NCBI GenBank assembly: GCA_002384765.1
Contig: DGBM01000030.1
Location: 1,911-6,935, forward strand
Source of the DNA: Demequinaceae bacterium UBA4004
GTDB lineage: Bacteria; Actinomycetota; Actinomycetes; Actinomycetales; Demequinaceae
Direction: 5' to 3'
DNA length: 5,025 bases
Below, piece by piece: positions 1-5,025 of the stretch. The notes below the pieces were generated by a model, which did not search any database, was not told the origin of the DNA, and worked only from the letters and a program-made list of their open reading frames with translations. A program made the position numbers and the translations under genes. Position 1 is the first letter of the stretch, and each line of letters starts with the position of its first letter.

Positions 1-19
1 CCCAGATTCCGGGGTTCAG

Positions 20-59
20 ATCATGCAGGACACGTCATAAGATGCATGGTTTGCATGAT
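20..59. repeat. 8-bp inverted repeat ATCATGCA / TGCATGAT
   Basis: The arms at 20-27 and 52-59 are perfect complements with a 24-bp spacer that itself contains the palindrome ATGCAT (42-47). This AT-richer stretch stands out from the GC-rich surroundings. It could be a protein-binding or recombination core site; chance is possible for arms this short. Confidence 0.4.
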
Positions 60-61
60 TC

Positions 62-82
62 TGGTCCCCTTTTGGTCCCCTT
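62..82 (+). repeat. Tandem direct repeat TGGTCCCCTT, 11-bp period
   Basis: TGGTCCCCTT occurs at 62-71 and again at 73-82, separated by one T. The 11-bp spacing is about one DNA helical turn, so two protein monomers could bind on the same face. Tyrosine integrase arm sites and replication iterons often look like this. The function here is not shown by the sequence. Confidence 0.6.
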
Positions 83-334: not shown

Positions 335-2722
335 TCATTCAGCAGGTTCCGCCGTCACGAAGCCTTCCTTCGACATCACGCGCCTGCGCCGTGAGTACAT
401 GCGTTCCAAGATAGGCACGTTCTTATCCCGGTAGTCGTGAACGATCGCGGGCATAGAGTGCTCCGCTCGTCCACGCGTGATGCGGCCGATCTGCTGAATG
501 ACGCGCCCCTTGAAAGAGACCGGGACAGTGAGGAAGAGAGTGTTCAGCGTCGGCAGGTCGAGACCTTCTCCGGCGATCTTGTCGATGGCGACAAGAACGA
601 ACGGCTGCTGCTGCGCGTCCATCTCCTCAAGCGAATGCCTGATGTCACGGCGGTTGGCAGCGGTGAGGCGTCCGTGAAGCCGGATCACCGGCGAAGCGCA
701 TGATTCCAGCGCATCCGCGAGCGCGTCGAGGTGTTGGAGCCTGTTCGTCAGTACGAGGCAAGTGCGCCCCTGGCCGACTGCTCCTCTGACGTGCCCTGTA
801 ATCATTGCGTTGCGCTCGGCATCGGCGGCGAGTTCCGAGTAAATCGCCTGAACGGATGGGCCGTCGATTCCGGATTCCTCGGTGCGGAAGGTCGTCTCAT
901 GGACGACCATCTCGCGAGCAGCATGATCGGCGGTGTCGACCACGTGGCGGATCGGACCGCATTGCATCGTGATCAGTCCATTCATCTGATCGGCGCGGTA
1001 GGGTGTCGCCGTCATCCCCACCCAGTAGCGGACATTGACGTTGCGCAGGGCGGCTTCGGTTGCTGGTGCTGCGACGGCGTGGCATTCGTCGATGATGATC
1101 TGCCCGTACTCCTCCAGCATGCTGGGGTCCGCGTTCCGATGCGCGACGGACTGCATCATGATCAGGTCCACAACGCCTCGCCGTTTCCGTCGCCCCGCCC
1201 CGAGCTGACCAATCTGCTTCTCGGTCAGGCCGAGGAACTGCTGGAGTCGTTCACGCCACTGGGCGAGCAGTTCGGCACGGTTCACGAGGATCGCCGTTGG
1301 CGTCGCGCGTTCGGCGATGAGGGCGCAGGCCATGACCGTCTTGCCTGCGCCTGGAGGAGCGACGAGCACTCCGGTGTCGTGCGCGAGGAGCGCATCGACC
1401 GCGCGCAGTTGCTCGTCTCGGAGTTGGCCCGTAAAGGTCAACTCCAAACGTCCCTGCGCCGTAGCCACTGTCTCGGTCGTTGTCTGGAAGCCTGCGTCCG
1501 CGAGGAGCGCTTCGGCTTCGTCAGTGAGTCCCCGAGGCAGACGCAGTTCGTGCTCGTCATGTTCGAAGCTGGTGACCAGACGCGGCGTGCCGAAGGTACT
1601 GAACCGCTGAGCCTGTCTGCGGTAGAACTCCGGGTTGGGCACGGACGCCATGTGTTTGAGTTCGGTGATCACGATCCCTGGAAGGAGCTCCGTCGGGATG
1701 TGCAGAAAAGCATCGCGGCGTAGCCCCAGCTTTCGTCCCGCCGTCGTGCGCGCGACCGCCTTGATATTTGATCGCCGCGGCCGTGCACCGAGCGACTCCG
1801 CCGGCCCCACGCGCGAATCCGCGAGGCTCGTCGAACCGAGTTCAGCGACCCGTTCGACGGGTACAGGCGTCGTCATTGCCAGGGCCGCGAACTGATCCTC
1901 ATACGGATCCCAGGTCCCGGGATCGACGAACACGGTCGTCCCGCGTCGGCGGCAGTCGCCCTGCAACGGTAGCGCGATGAGATTGCCCAGGCGCGCCCGC
2001 CCAGTGGATCGTTCCGGCAGGGTGTCTTGCGACGGAAAGAAGCGATCGTAACTCTGAAAATCCATCGTCGGTCGGCGCGCCATGGCGGCGCGCAGAAGGC
2101 GCATCCCTGCCGTTCGCGCTGTCGCCGCCAGAACAAGGTCCTCGAAAAACATCCAGACATGCGCACCCTCACCGGATCGCGACACTTCGGTGAGCACGTC
2201 GATCCTGGCGCGCTCGCACTCCGCAACGAATGCTGCGGCATCATGCCGCCACTGCGCGTCGTCGAAGTCGCAGACCAGTAGACGGCACTGGTCGCCAGCA
2301 AGCATCGGGTAGAGGCCTGCGTGAAACTCGCGCTCTCCGGGTTGAAAAGCGCCTCGAAGATGCCGCTCCACGGTTCGATCTTCGAGCGGCAGATAGTCCG
2401 CAGCGGTCTCGGACCCGGTGTAAAAGCCGCCGCGTACCGCTGGGGCCCAACCTGACTTTCCCGTGCGCGCGCTGGTCCACCGCACCGCGTGGACATCACT
2501 CCTGCCGACGAAGCGAGCACGGAACAGGGCGAGCTTTTCGGCACTCGACGATGCTGCCGTCACCGCAGGCAGCAGGCCAGCACGAGCGGGTACAGCCACC
2601 AAGACCTTTTCCATCGCGTCTCTCTCGCGCTCAAGTTCTCCGAGCTCGCTGCGAGCCTCCGCGAGGTCCTGCTCCAGTCTCGTGATCCGAGACCTCAAGA
2701 TGTCGATCTCGGCGTCAGTCAA
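335..2722 (-). CDS. TOTE-type primase (AEP) fused to superfamily 2 DEAD/DEAH-like helicase
   Basis: A 795-residue two-part enzyme. Residues 10-40 look like a coiled coil rich in Leu, Glu and Arg. Residues 60-285 match the archaeo-eukaryotic primase domain of TOTE conflict systems: CDFD (151-154) with the paired metal-binding acids, SRSGEGAHVW (181-190) with the motif II histidine, SYDRFFPSQD (224-233) and GNLIALPLQ (246-254). Residues 430-765 are a superfamily 2 helicase: Walker A APPGAGKT (455-462), DECH (545-548), TATP (571-574) and motif VI QQIGRITRGR (743-752). All ATPase motifs look intact. It probably unwinds or remodels nucleic acid and may make primers; the substrate is unknown. The start is TTG: no ATG or GTG lies between it and the in-frame upstream stop at 2759-2761, and GGGGA sits 7 nt before it. 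It overlaps the upstream toxin gene by 8 bp, suggesting translational coupling. The Cys cluster usual in TOTE primases seems absent. Domain calls are strong; the role in defence is inference. Confidence 0.92.
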   Translation of the reverse strand: MTDAEIDILRSRITRLEQDLAEARSELGELERERDAMEKVLVAVPARAGLLPAVTAASSSAEKLALFRARFVGRSDVHAVRWTSARTGKSGWAPAVRGGFYTGSETAADYLPLEDRTVERHLRGAFQPGEREFHAGLYPMLAGDQCRLLVCDFDDAQWRHDAAAFVAECERARIDVLTEVSRSGEGAHVWMFFEDLVLAATARTAGMRLLRAAMARRPTMDFQSYDRFFPSQDTLPERSTGRARLGNLIALPLQGDCRRRGTTVFVDPGTWDPYEDQFAALAMTTPVPVERVAELGSTSLADSRVGPAESLGARPRRSNIKAVARTTAGRKLGLRRDAFLHIPTELLPGIVITELKHMASVPNPEFYRRQAQRFSTFGTPRLVTSFEHDEHELRLPRGLTDEAEALLADAGFQTTTETVATAQGRLELTFTGQLRDEQLRAVDALLAHDTGVLVAPPGAGKTVMACALIAERATPTAILVNRAELLAQWRERLQQFLGLTEKQIGQLGAGRRKRRGVVDLIMMQSVAHRNADPSMLEEYGQIIIDECHAVAAPATEAALRNVNVRYWVGMTATPYRADQMNGLITMQCGPIRHVVDTADHAAREMVVHETTFRTEESGIDGPSVQAIYSELAADAERNAMITGHVRGAVGQGRTCLVLTNRLQHLDALADALESCASPVIRLHGRLTAANRRDIRHSLEEMDAQQQPFVLVAIDKIAGEGLDLPTLNTLFLTVPVSFKGRVIQQIGRITRGRAEHSMPAIVHDYRDKNVPILERMYSRRRRVMSKEGFVTAEPAE

Positions 2723-3623
2723 CGGCTTTTCCCCAGGACTGAGCGTTCGGGTCCCACATCAGATGGGCCACGTTATTCGTCAGAGCAGGTTCGGTGAAGA
2801 CTAAGCATGCCTGAAGAAGTTCGGCGAAGCTCTCCGGTGTCGACTGTTCGAGTCGTTGCTTTTTACGCCAGGTCTCCCACTTGCGTTGTGCCAGTGCCGG
2901 CATCCCCGCGATAAGTGGCCCAAGAGGTTCGATGGCGACTTGACGGTAGCGGGCGACGGTGTCGATCGCTTCGCGCAGGTCTGCTCCGCGGATGATCCTG
3001 GACCTCGCGATGGCTGCGATGTCGGTGAAGTCGCGCCAACGGGTGTTCTGCTCACCTCGTTCGATCGCGGTGACGATCTTTTCTGCGAGAACCATGTGGT
3101 CTGGGTAGCCAGCGAGCCTGAGCGTTCCACCAAGAAGGAGCGGGAGCACGGCTTCAGTCGGGGCCGGCCAGATCGGATCACCAAAGTTCACGTCGACGTG
3201 CAGAGCTACCCGCGCTGTCGCGAGTTGCGCCGTGATCTTGACGCGGGCACCGTTGTGATCGGCGTCGTCCCGGATTGGCTCTCCCACTGCGGAGTCCGAG
3301 TCGAACTCCAACCCGTCCTCGAGGTGCACTTCGATGATGCTGCGCACCCGTTGCTCGACGTCGGTGATGTCGTTGGTGAATCCGGTGGCGGCGAAGTCGA
3401 TGTCGCGGGTCGGCCGTCGCGCAGCGAATGCCGCCATGAGCACACCGCCCTTGAGTACGAACTCTCCGGCATGCTCAGAGACTGCCAACCGGGCGAGAAA
3501 ACCTTCGAGCGCGTACAACGTGAAGTACTCAGCGGGATCGCGTCCGTCGCGGCGGGCGAGGTTTCGCAGATCGTTGTATGCCTTCCCAGCAGGAGTGTCT
3601 CGTGTCGGAGTTGGCGGGGTCAT
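2715..3623 (-). CDS. abiEii: AbiEii/AbiGii-family nucleotidyltransferase toxin (type IV toxin-antitoxin)
   Basis: A 302-residue protein of the AbiEii group of DNA polymerase beta-like nucleotidyltransferases. Motifs in order: FVLKGGVLM (55-63) with the nucleotide-binding KGG; TRDIDF (72-77) with the two metal-binding aspartates D74 and D76; HVDVNFGD (142-149) with the third acidic residue D144; and a C-terminal AEK...RWRDFTDI block (180-202) matching AbiEii motif IV. Family members act in the cytoplasm and arrest growth by transferring nucleotides, with tRNA ends as targets in some studied relatives; the target here is unknown. A longer frame reaches back to 3725, but the ATG at 3623 is preferred. 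It makes an ATGA overlap with the antitoxin stop, has GAGG 7 nt upstream (3631-3634), and gives a normal family length. It lies between the AbiEi gene and the primase-helicase in one operon. All catalytic motifs appear intact, so the toxin is probably active. Confidence 0.92.
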   Translation of the reverse strand: MTPPTPTRDTPAGKAYNDLRNLARRDGRDPAEYFTLYALEGFLARLAVSEHAGEFVLKGGVLMAAFAARRPTRDIDFAATGFTNDITDVEQRVRSIIEVHLEDGLEFDSDSAVGEPIRDDADHNGARVKITAQLATARVALHVDVNFGDPIWPAPTEAVLPLLLGGTLRLAGYPDHMVLAEKIVTAIERGEQNTRWRDFTDIAAIARSRIIRGADLREAIDTVARYRQVAIEPLGPLIAGMPALAQRKWETWRKKQRLEQSTPESFAELLQACLVFTEPALTNNVAHLMWDPNAQSWGKAVD

Positions 3624-4195
3624 AGGAGCGCCTCGAGCGCCTGTCGGATCCGCGGCTGCGCCTTTGGGAAAGACGATGCAACCTTCATCAGGGCTGCTGG
3701 CGAGTTCCCGCGGCGGCGCAACCACCGTCGGAGTGAGTCGTAGGCGACGTCGCTGCCTTGCTGATGCATGAGCCGGAAGCAGTCCACGATCGTTCTCTCG
3801 GCTGAGTAGATGGAGAACCTCAGTCCATTTCCGGCATCGATGTGGTCGCGTCCGATGTGAAAGGTTGTCGGGTCGAAGCTGTGCCAGGCAACGTGAGCGA
3901 GCCCAACGGGATGATGGACACCACGTGGGAGGGCGATATCAGACTCGAACGGGATGGCGTCGCTCAGGTCGTGGTGCACGAGCGCACTCGTCAGACACAA
4001 CGTCGCCTCTTCACGCACAGCCGTTGCTGCGGCGAGCGAAGCAAAGGCAGGCTCGATCTTGTCAGGACGCAGATACACACCACGGCCCATTCGTTCGATC
4101 TCACCCTTCGCGAGAAGGTCGTAAACCTGATCTTTCCGCAGGCCTGCGGTGCGAGCGTCGCTGAGCGTGAACACGGGTCCGAGGTCCGCCGCCAT
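3620..4195 (-). CDS. abiEi: AbiEi-family antitoxin and transcriptional repressor
   Basis: A 191-residue protein with the AbiEi layout. Residues 1-45 form a winged helix-turn-helix (FTLSDARTAGLRKDQVYDLL followed by the wing GRGVYLRP, 38-44 approx.). A C-terminal domain follows with the family-typical LCLTSALVHHDLSDAIP (66-82), ALPRG (88-92) and a SAERTIVDCFR helix (131-141). In studied type IV pairs the antitoxin does not bind the toxin; it counters its effect and represses its own operon by binding inverted repeats in the promoter. The ATG at 4195 has GGGAGG (4202-4207) six bases upstream, the best ribosome binding site in the window, and a candidate operator lies at 4226-4245. It is the first gene of the operon; its last codons overlap the toxin start by ATGA. 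The identity is firm at family level, and autorepression here is inferred. Confidence 0.9.
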   Translation of the reverse strand: MAADLGPVFTLSDARTAGLRKDQVYDLLAKGEIERMGRGVYLRPDKIEPAFASLAAATAVREEATLCLTSALVHHDLSDAIPFESDIALPRGVHHPVGLAHVAWHSFDPTTFHIGRDHIDAGNGLRFSIYSAERTIVDCFRLMHQQGSDVAYDSLRRWLRRRGNSPAALMKVASSFPKAQPRIRQALEALL

Positions 4196-4268
4196 GATCC
4201 ACCTCCCAACTCTCTACACATGGAGCCTATCTGTAATGAGTTAGGAAGGCTACGACGAGGCTCAAGGG
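4196..4268. promoter_or_regulatory. Divergent intergenic region with candidate AbiEi operator
   Basis: This 73-bp gap separates the minus-strand toxin-antitoxin operon from the plus-strand integrase and must hold both promoters unless they lie inside the genes. It contains an imperfect inverted repeat, CCTATCT-6 bp-AGTTAGG (4226-4245), with six of seven arm positions complementary. The plus-strand TGTAAT (4232-4237) inside it resembles a -10 box for the integrase, with no good -35 box; I could not place a convincing promoter for the antitoxin. AbiEi proteins are known to bind promoter inverted repeats, so a shared operator is plausible but unproven. GAGG (4257-4260), eight bases before the integrase ATG, is its likely ribosome binding site. 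Confidence 0.45.
4202..4207 (-). promoter_or_regulatory. Strong ribosome binding site of the antitoxin gene
   Basis: On the minus strand this reads GGGAGG, a near-perfect Shine-Dalgarno sequence, six bases before the ATG at 4195. It fixes the start of the AbiEi gene. It is clearly stronger than the sites before the toxin (GAGG) and helicase (GGGGA), which would favour antitoxin over toxin synthesis from the shared transcript. Confidence 0.8.
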
Positions 4269-4931
4269 ATGAAACGTTCCTTTGCCGCCATCGCTCCACT
4301 CGGAGTCCACATCAACGCCGACACCGTGCCCTGCGGAAAACGTATTCGCGCACGAGCAAGGTGGACTGACCCAGTCTCAGGCATCCGCGAAAGTCGATCG
4401 ATCACCGTCGACAACAAAGCGTCCGCATACGAATTCTTCAGGGCGCTAAGGTCCCACGTCGGCGCAGACCTCGACCGGCTCATCACACTGACGGACTACG
4501 CACATCAGATCGGAGATCGGTTCCTCCGCGGCGTGGACATGACCTCCACTGCCGCCGGATACCGTGCGGGACTTTGGCTCCGAGCCCTACCGGCGCTTGG
4601 GCGTCTATGCGTTCGGGACATCACGTCCGGAATCGTGGACCGAAGCATCGACCGCTGGGAGATCGAGCACTCTCGCTCGACACTCAAGAACACGATCGCT
4701 GCACTCACACGAGTTCTCGACGAGGCCGTTCGCGACGAAATCATCACCCGGAATCCGGTGAGAGACCGGGCTCATCGACGGTATCGGATGCGGGCGACAC
4801 CGCACCTCCAAACACCCATTCCTTCACCCACCGATATCGGACTGATCGCTGCCGCGTGTGCCGAGGCCCACCAGAGCTACGGCGACCACGTCATCCTGAG
4901 CGCATTTCTTGCCGCACGCACTTCAGAAGTC

Positions 4932-4937
4932 GCCGGG
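4932..4937. repeat. Left copy of 6-bp target-site duplication (GCCGGG)
   Basis: GCCGGG lies directly before the TGT end of the 52-bp insertion and is repeated at 4990-4995 directly after its ACA end. Collapsing the two copies gives an uninterrupted integrase frame reading SEVAGLVVGDIDWTN, the expected sequence after the first catalytic arginine. That makes a genuine target duplication much more likely than chance. Confidence 0.75.
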
Positions 4938-4989
4938 TGTCAATGGCCTTTGAGAAATGCCCATGGGCAGTTTCGCATGGCCGCTAACA
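4938..4989. mobile_element. 52-bp palindromic mini-insertion with IS-like ends inside the integrase gene
   Basis: The segment starts TGTCAATGGCC and ends GGCCGCTAACA. Its two 26-bp halves are inverted repeats of each other, identical at 17 of 26 positions without gaps and more with two small gaps, and they meet exactly at the perfect 12-bp palindrome TGCCCATGGGCA (4958-4969). Direct GCCGGG copies flank it. TGT...ACA ends occur in several insertion sequence families; the pattern would suit a derivative of an IS21- or IS481-like element, but I cannot assign the family. There is no room for a transposase, so it is a MITE-like or internally deleted element moved by enzymes encoded elsewhere. A misjoined assembly across a longer insertion sequence is the main alternative. 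Confidence 0.72.
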
Positions 4990-4995
4990 GCCGGG
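4990..4995. repeat. Right copy of 6-bp target-site duplication (GCCGGG)
   Basis: Second GCCGGG copy, immediately after the ACA end of the mini-insertion and before the resumed integrase sequence. It pairs with the copy at 4932-4937. Confidence 0.75.
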
Positions 4996-5025
4996 CTCGT
5001 CGTCGGCGACATCGATTGGACGAAC

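Follow-up and report, generated by a model that had tools for sequence, protein, structure and literature searches.

Gene organization of the locus

The 5,025 nucleotides analysed here (the window; contig DGBM01000030.1 of Demequinaceae bacterium UBA4004, positions 1,911 to 6,935) contain three overlapping genes, all on the minus strand between positions 335 and 4195, for the antitoxin AbiEi, the toxin AbiEii and a protein in which an archaeo-eukaryotic primase (AEP) domain of the TOTE family is joined to a superfamily 2 (SF2) helicase, referred to below as TOTE. The first gene, abiEi (3620..4195), codes for an antitoxin and transcriptional regulator of 191 amino acids recognized by Pfam and PADLOC, and its stop codon overlaps the start codon of abiEii in an ATGA (3620..3623). 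The second, abiEii (2715..3623), codes for a nucleotidyltransferase (NTase) toxin of 302 amino acids, identified by Pfam, PADLOC and alignment, and its stop lies in an 8-bp overlap, TTGACTGA (2715..2722), with the start of the TOTE gene (335..2722); the latter, of 795 amino acids from a TTG start, was defined from the open reading frame (ORF) listing, Pfam, alignment and the ratio of nonsynonymous to synonymous substitution rates (dN/dS). All Pfam scores exceeded the curated cut-offs: 227.5 bits for AEP-TOTE (PF22548, gathering score 27), 80.7 for ResIII, 36.1 for Helicase_C, 108.7 for AbiEii (PF08843) and 37.5 for AbiEi_4 (cut-off 25). Three overlapping genes in one direction, as proposed in an earlier sequence-only reading, were borne out, with their coordinates and both overlaps. 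The ATGA overlap takes the ATG at 3623 as the AbiEii start, preferred over a longer GTG ORF extending to 3725, and the 8-bp overlap takes as the TOTE start a putative TTG that is conserved in the sister copies.

The nearest TOTE copies are those of loci L001 and L002 (97% identical), L008 (93%), and L003 and L004 (88%), and in L001 to L004 AbiEi and AbiEii precede TOTE. Comparison of the junctions showed that the ATGA overlap is identical in L001, L003 and L004, and that the second overlap has the same length in all three, being TTGACTGA in L001 and TTGACTAA in L003 and L004. The dN/dS values against the window lay between 0.11 and 0.24 in 12 of 12 gene comparisons (0.12-0.18 for AbiEi and AbiEii, 0.11-0.24 for TOTE); all three genes are under purifying selection. 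Chance ORFs were ruled out by the conserved overlaps together with this selection across copies. L001 and L002 are one element copy found in metagenome-assembled genomes labelled Acidobacteria and Actinomycetes, which is probably a binning matter.

In L008 an in-frame deletion joins AbiEii residues 1-32 to approximately residue 5 of TOTE (L008 5894-8362), so that the reading frame of TOTE there opens at the AbiEii start; a short common stretch at the junction, noticed by eye, suggests that the deletion occurred by microhomology. In L009 (5999-8709) an insert of about 1.1 kb splits the TOTE gene, which is 82% identical; judged by eye, an ORF within the insert resembles a transposase gene. This deletion and this insert, with the transposase genes inside the L001 element, are what a decaying genomic island without current function would display; such a reading is very improbable for the window, where the genes are intact, the dN/dS values are those given above and the catalytic residues are conserved.

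The AbiE pair and its upstream region

AbiEii carries the motifs KGG...RDIDF, AEK and RDFTD, which align to NTase motifs I-IV. The AbiE NTases are described as having hG[G/S]..DhD, a lysine motif III and a +DxxD motif IV in PMC3985639 (Dy et al. 2014), which also reports that AbiEi regulates itself, that AbiEii is bacteriostatic and that the system confers phage resistance and stabilizes plasmids. AbiEi directly precedes AbiEii, and PADLOC assigns both proteins strongly.

The intergenic region between the divergent abiEi and integrase genes (4196..4268) forms a conserved block. Binding of AbiEi to inverted repeats has been reported (PMC7319586 and PMC3985639, in the portions available), and the block contains an imperfect inverted repeat, CCTTCCTAACTC...GAGTTGGGAGGT, with 9 of 12 matches in the best 12-bp repeat. 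As a candidate AbiEi operator this repeat does no better than shuffled sequences, 63 of 300 of which reached it, and the repeat search reported none there.

The TOTE protein

The AEP-TOTE primase-polymerase domain spans residues 62-293 (1844..2539, minus strand) and the SF2 helicase core residues 433-750 (473..1426, minus strand), both delimited by Pfam and by an alignment of 24 TOTEs; the core shows the GKT Walker A, DECH, [ST]AT and QxxGRxxR motifs. In the AEP domain D152, D154, S183, H188 and D226 are invariant in the 24 aligned proteins, including that of the window, and from their motif roles we take D152, D154, H188 and D226 to be the catalytic residues. In the helicase G460-K461-T462, D545-E546-C547-H548, A572-T573, Q743, G746, R747 and R750 are likewise invariant. 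Seventeen of the 24 TOTEs present a CxK(P/S)xxxCxxC-like cluster before AEP motif A (L015 without the last Cys), and seven lack it (the window, L003, L005, L006, L007, L010 and L117).

Profile searches of solved structures gave 7nqd and 7nqf as the closest relatives of residues 121-296; we take both to be a CRISPR-associated primase-polymerase (CAPP), the PDB file naming the molecule a TPR_REGION domain-containing protein. The best PADLOC model for TOTE was that of a CAS-associated PrimPol, and the other window proteins matched no Cas model in PADLOC. The closest solved relatives of the helicase part were XPBII, RAD25, RadD and UvsW (E value 8e-35 to XPBII), and the NCBIfam equivalog cut-offs were far from being reached (76.6 of 610 bits for XPB).

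The family is large, with 4358 proteins at E values up to 1e-100 among 7998 candidates scored. Two very close relatives of the window TOTE were matched, one 100% identical on a 17,139-base contig and one 96% identical that is named from Cryobacterium sp. TmT2-59. Among phage records 1306 had a match, and in none of them did a single place cover 80% of TOTE; the 40 phage matches that were listed all begin at residue 360 or later. Viral contigs yielded one TOTE, 37% identical, and no AbiEii relative.

The TOTE of L117 (5782-8436), from a Streptomyces plasmid, is fused to an Lsr2 DNA-binding domain, and the same domain occurs in five of 120 listed TOTE homologues (P0231, P0235 and P0238-P0240). 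Lsr2 recognizes foreign AT-rich DNA, and the fusion would therefore fit foreign DNA as a substrate of TOTE.

The integrative element

The operon sits at the core of a small mobile element with its own integrase, and the window holds most of a minimal version of it, integrase plus three-gene operon. Neither the divergent integrase gene nor the element end at 1..81 had been noted in the sequence-only reading. The integrase gene (4269..5025, plus strand) is truncated by the window end, leaving the N-terminal part of a tyrosine recombinase that is 75-78% identical to the integrases of L003, L004 and L008. Phage_int_M remains below its cut-off in this part (20.7 of 27 bits), and Phage_integrase reaches 63.4 bits in the full-length L003 homologue, a tyrosine recombinase. 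L001 and L002 carry an IS1595-type transposase gene at the position expected for the integrase.

An integrase together with direct repeats of a tRNA 3' end was found in two of the sister copies. L008 has a pair of 46-bp direct repeats around the element, one copy being the 3' end of a tRNA-Pro gene. L003 has 43-bp repeats on both sides of the element, with the same tRNA-Pro 3' sequence, although no complete tRNA gene is called there. The window shows the partial integrase and the inner end of the element (1..81), which is 82-88% identical to the sequence just inside the right-hand repeat of L008 and L003 and 80% identical to L001 sequence located about 100 bp from a tRNA-Pro gene. L001 has such a gene adjoining the element end, and in L005 one is found near TOTE. 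By comparison with the sister copies, the target of the window element would also be tRNA-Pro and the terminal repeat would sit just beyond the window edge. Homology with L001 ends at window positions 236 and 4282 and resumes, about 1.5 kb farther along L001, for window 7-80; in L003 the left end of the window likewise reappears after about 1.2 kb.

Between TOTE and the right end of the element there is a cargo slot, which is empty in the window and occupied by a gene with zinc-finger-like cysteines in L003 (5892-7091) and L004 (4759-5619), by the defence pair IetA-IetS (AAA ATPase and subtilase) in L008 (8559-12124) and by a transposase gene in L001. No Pfam family reached its cut-off with the L003 cargo protein, and PADLOC gave no match to it. 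The gene of this protein overlaps TOTE by 8 bp, and to count it as a fourth gene of the operon would be over-reading, because L004 has only the part from its position 4759 (286 aligned residues, 99% identical) and the likely start, judged by eye, lies further inside; no four-gene operon is claimed.

The setting in an integrative element would allow a plain addiction or replication role. TOTE could be the replication or repair protein of the element itself, acting on the excised circle or in gap repair after integration, with AbiE as a stability module. This is improbable. The window element does show integrase, AbiE and TOTE only, and some TOTEs are part of transposon-like units, between a recombinase and a Tn3-family transposase in L317 (5262-11199) and in a TniB-TniQ-TOTE arrangement, with TOTE overlapping TniQ, in L314 (2805-8283). 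Against it, the helicase is of the XPB/RadD/UvsW SF2 type, whose members are repair or remodelling translocases, and Phage_integrase was matched by fewer than 2 of 65 upstream and at most 2 of 68 downstream neighbours of TOTE. Primase-helicase modules of mobile elements do exist, as in SCCmec (PMC7581432, in its available part).

A proposed two-arm cassette

The reading that we tentatively prefer, at somewhat less than an even chance, is that of a two-arm, co-regulated anti-invader cassette, in which an addiction or abortive module is co-expressed with a DNA-acting TOTE arm. We infer that the three genes would be co-transcribed under AbiEi, which would repress the operon and neutralize the toxin. 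AbiEii, an NTase of the DNA-polymerase-beta type, would stop growth once AbiEi falls, and this arrest would both penalize loss of the element and abort infection. TOTE, made by translational coupling from the AbiEi-controlled message, would rise at the same time; its XPB/RadD-like helicase would travel along DNA that is foreign or is stalled in replication, and the primase-polymerase domain would process or block that DNA. The toxin upstream of TOTE would be an exchangeable part, and its exchange argues for a general role, abortive or addictive, and not for a specific contact with TOTE. The conserved overlaps, the purifying selection and the Lsr2 domain of the L117 TOTE, all described above, speak for this reading, as do the recurrence of toxins beside TOTE and the exchange of the cassette described below. 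A defence setting is favoured by neighbours that match defence models, namely IetA/IetS in L008, a HEC-09-like NYN protein in L005, Septu and type I restriction; the last two models were matched among 65 upstream neighbours.

Recurrence of the gene order

The order of the window is found again in a second, distant TOTE clade, intact in L206, with a different AbiE pair in L298 and with an AbiEii fragment in L207. The TOTEs of L206 and L298 are 82% identical over 660 residues, while their AbiEii proteins share 22% over 204 and their AbiEi proteins about 25% over 77, in the same order. In L298 (2327-8480) Fic, AbiEi, AbiEii and a TOTE split into two reading frames stand in a row. AbiEii also adjoins TOTE in other clades: upstream in L038, convergent in L032, downstream in L301 and in the order TOTE-AbiEi-AbiEii in L305. 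The AbiE genes of L206, L298, L038, L032 and L305 were confirmed by Pfam.

Changes of the toxin label were counted on a tree of 137 TOTEs built with FastTree only, of which 17 bore the label AbiEii and 13 the label Fic; near-copies were kept, four TOTEs shorter than 600 amino acids were omitted, the window and L008 were labelled manually and the long branch L066 was flagged. The AbiEii label required 10 changes and the Fic label 11, at least 8 of each being forced by the starred branches. With shuffled labels the mean was 16.3 for AbiEii, none of 500 shuffles being as low as 10, and 12.6 for Fic, with 23 of 500 as low as 11.

Toxin genes were enriched at the positions immediately beside TOTE. 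In the discovery set (79 loci) 11 Fic and 6 AbiEii were found among 147 immediate neighbours; further out, Fic and AbiEii together numbered 1 + 2 of 136 at rank 2, 2 + 0 of 123 at rank 3, 0 of 109 at rank 4 and 1 + 0 of 221 beyond. The rank tests were made after removal of near-duplicate TOTEs at 90, 80 or 70% identity. At 90%, AbiEii or Fic accounted for 15 of 225 genes at rank 1 versus 7 of 687 genes from rank 3 outwards over all 122 loci (p=1.6e-5), and 10 of 123 versus 3 of 380 in the discovery set (p=8.2e-5). By Pfam, Fic was matched by 11 of 133 immediate neighbours (6 of 65 upstream, 5 of 68 downstream) versus 2 of 127 at ranks 3-4 (Fisher p=0.02). HipA_C was matched by 2 of 65 upstream neighbours, and among the matches listed for the control genes of ranks 3-4 Phage_integrase had 2 of 127. 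These tallies comprise the best 25 families, those with two members being incomplete for the downstream and control sets. They cover 65 of 73 upstream neighbours (without L001-L004, L008, L009, L033 and L069), 68 of 74 downstream neighbours (without L001-L003, L009, L059 and L069) and, as controls, 127 of 130 listed far genes drawn at random from 217, three long ones being omitted. The regular expression for Fic misses some Fic proteins, for example the one that the annotation of L312 places three genes away from TOTE.

Evidence against the pairing, and a possible passenger alternative

Several observations weigh against the two-arm cassette. In 7 of 140 TOTE loci AbiEii is the gene directly upstream of TOTE and has the same strand (L001-L004, L038, L206 and, as a fragment, L207), and the number becomes 8 if the split TOTE of L298 is counted as one gene; AbiEi is also present in six of these eight (L001-L004, L206 and L298). 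Within two genes on either side AbiEii occurs in 15 of 140. L008 is a relic that has lost AbiEii and kept TOTE, and in L005, whose TOTE is 81% identical, a HEC-09-like NYN gene (766-1560) stands directly upstream in place of AbiE. The 14 plasmid TOTE loci gave no AbiEii match by sequence, and none of 13 annotated plasmid loci, for which the gene table is incomplete, had Fic or AbiEii as direct neighbour. By Pfam alone AbiEii was matched by 4 of 133 immediate neighbours (2 upstream, 2 downstream) versus 2 of 127 controls (p=0.68). In the test set at 90% the comparison was 5 of 102 versus 4 of 307, which is marginal (p=0.047, and 0.053-0.054 at 80 and 70%). In the blind part it was 2 of 63 versus 1 of 173 (p=0.17) and in set A 3 of 39 versus 3 of 134 (p=0.13), neither significant. 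Finally, we know of no experimental activity for this TOTE.

The blind part comprised 27 of 37 places in the phylum of L063 (Nitratidesulfovibrio) and 9 of 12 in that of L079 (Thiohalocapsa), with wide flanks; the remaining 13 places were incomplete or broken or belonged to the discovery set already, and the broken G1185 and G1356 were kept. Set A, of 25 loci mainly from the phylum of the L008 genome, was partly known before the hypothesis and is thus not blind. The enrichment has the same direction throughout and rests mainly on the discovery set. Since the blind part alone is not significant, confidence in the two-arm cassette was lowered, as was that in a wider claim that we consider rather unlikely: that TOTE forms the constant arm of a modular immune cassette of wide occurrence, beside which a plug-in toxin, mostly a nucleotide-transferring one (AbiEii or Fic), is exchanged, with the autoregulated promoter of the toxin driving both and the toxin-antitoxin pair acting as sensor and switch.

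The AbiE-TOTE pairing is therefore not obligate, as the counts, the NYN gene of L005 and the loss of AbiEii in L008 indicate, and an obligate system was rejected. TOTE genes are not regularly preceded by AbiEi-AbiEii. The sequence-only reading had named rarity of AbiEii beside TOTE as a point that would tell against it, and this rarity is partly what was found; the order does recur in several copies and in a distant clade. The combined defence cassette of that reading is partly supported: the conserved operon, the recurring order and the overall toxin enrichment speak for it, though not as a fixed system.

In the 398 genomes of the family of the L008 genome (titled Microbacteriaceae), an AbiEii relative (E value up to 1e-10) was found in 35 and a TOTE domain above cut-off in 5, although one of these five matches is marginal and covers part of the domain. 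The two adjoin in 3 of the 398, intact in G150 and G152 and as the L008 relic in G156; G544 has them at a distance of about 1 Mb. In the plasmid loci HipA adjoins TOTE in L312 and a RelE/ParE-type toxin does so in L316, and a HipA N-terminal gene is second from TOTE in L309.

The genes may also be independent passengers of a cargo slot, with AbiE as an addiction and stability module of the element and TOTE as a separate defence or repair gene that is read through; we regard this as a real possibility, appreciably below an even chance. The 125 of 140 loci that have no AbiEii among the two nearest genes on either side of TOTE, the retention of TOTE in L008 and the replacement of AbiE in L005 are consistent with it, as are the varied contents of the slot after TOTE (none, zinc-finger-like gene, IetAS or transposase) and the plasmid stabilization by AbiE described in the available part of PMC3985639. 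Against it stand the conserved overlapping junctions, the same order with different AbiE pairs in L298 and L206, and the overall toxin enrichment at rank 1 versus more distant genes of the same islands.

Relation to known systems and significance

The operon resembles the type IV toxin-antitoxin system AbiE in its AbiEi-AbiEii order, NTase motifs I-IV, AbiEi regulator family and location on a mobile element. It differs from the published operons, which are bicistronic according to the available part of PMC3985639, in its third overlapping gene, TOTE, and in that its AbiEi matches AbiEi_4. Like the TOTE conflict system AEP proteins (PF22548; the term stands in some NCBI protein names), the third product combines AEP-TOTE with ResIII/Helicase_C in one protein and is often on mobile DNA, and the subclade of the window differs from them in lacking the CxK(P/S)xxxCxxC-like cluster. 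The AEP domain is related by profile to that of the presumed CAPP structures 7nqd and 7nqf, and the helicase core to XPB, XPBII, RadD and UvsW; unlike in either group, the two are here fused to each other. The replication module of SCCmec is likewise an operon of a mobile element that provides both priming and 3'-5' helicase activity, there in separate proteins (PMC7581432, available part).

Among the open-access papers listed, none was found that describes an operon joining AbiE to TOTE or toxins being enriched next to TOTE, which is weak evidence of absence; nor was there a paper defining the TOTE conflict system, a functional TOTE paper or one joining an archaeo-eukaryotic primase, Lsr2 and a helicase. 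In the available part of PMC5862659 neither AbiE nor Fic occurs. Each part of the operon is already known, and the combination of AbiE with TOTE is apparently unreported. The recurrent, exchangeable toxin beside some TOTEs offers a testable lead to the role of TOTE, for which the toxin-less L008 and the toxin-swapped L206 and L298 constitute natural comparisons. Moreover, toxin-antitoxin promoters may drive downstream DNA-acting genes besides their own toxin.

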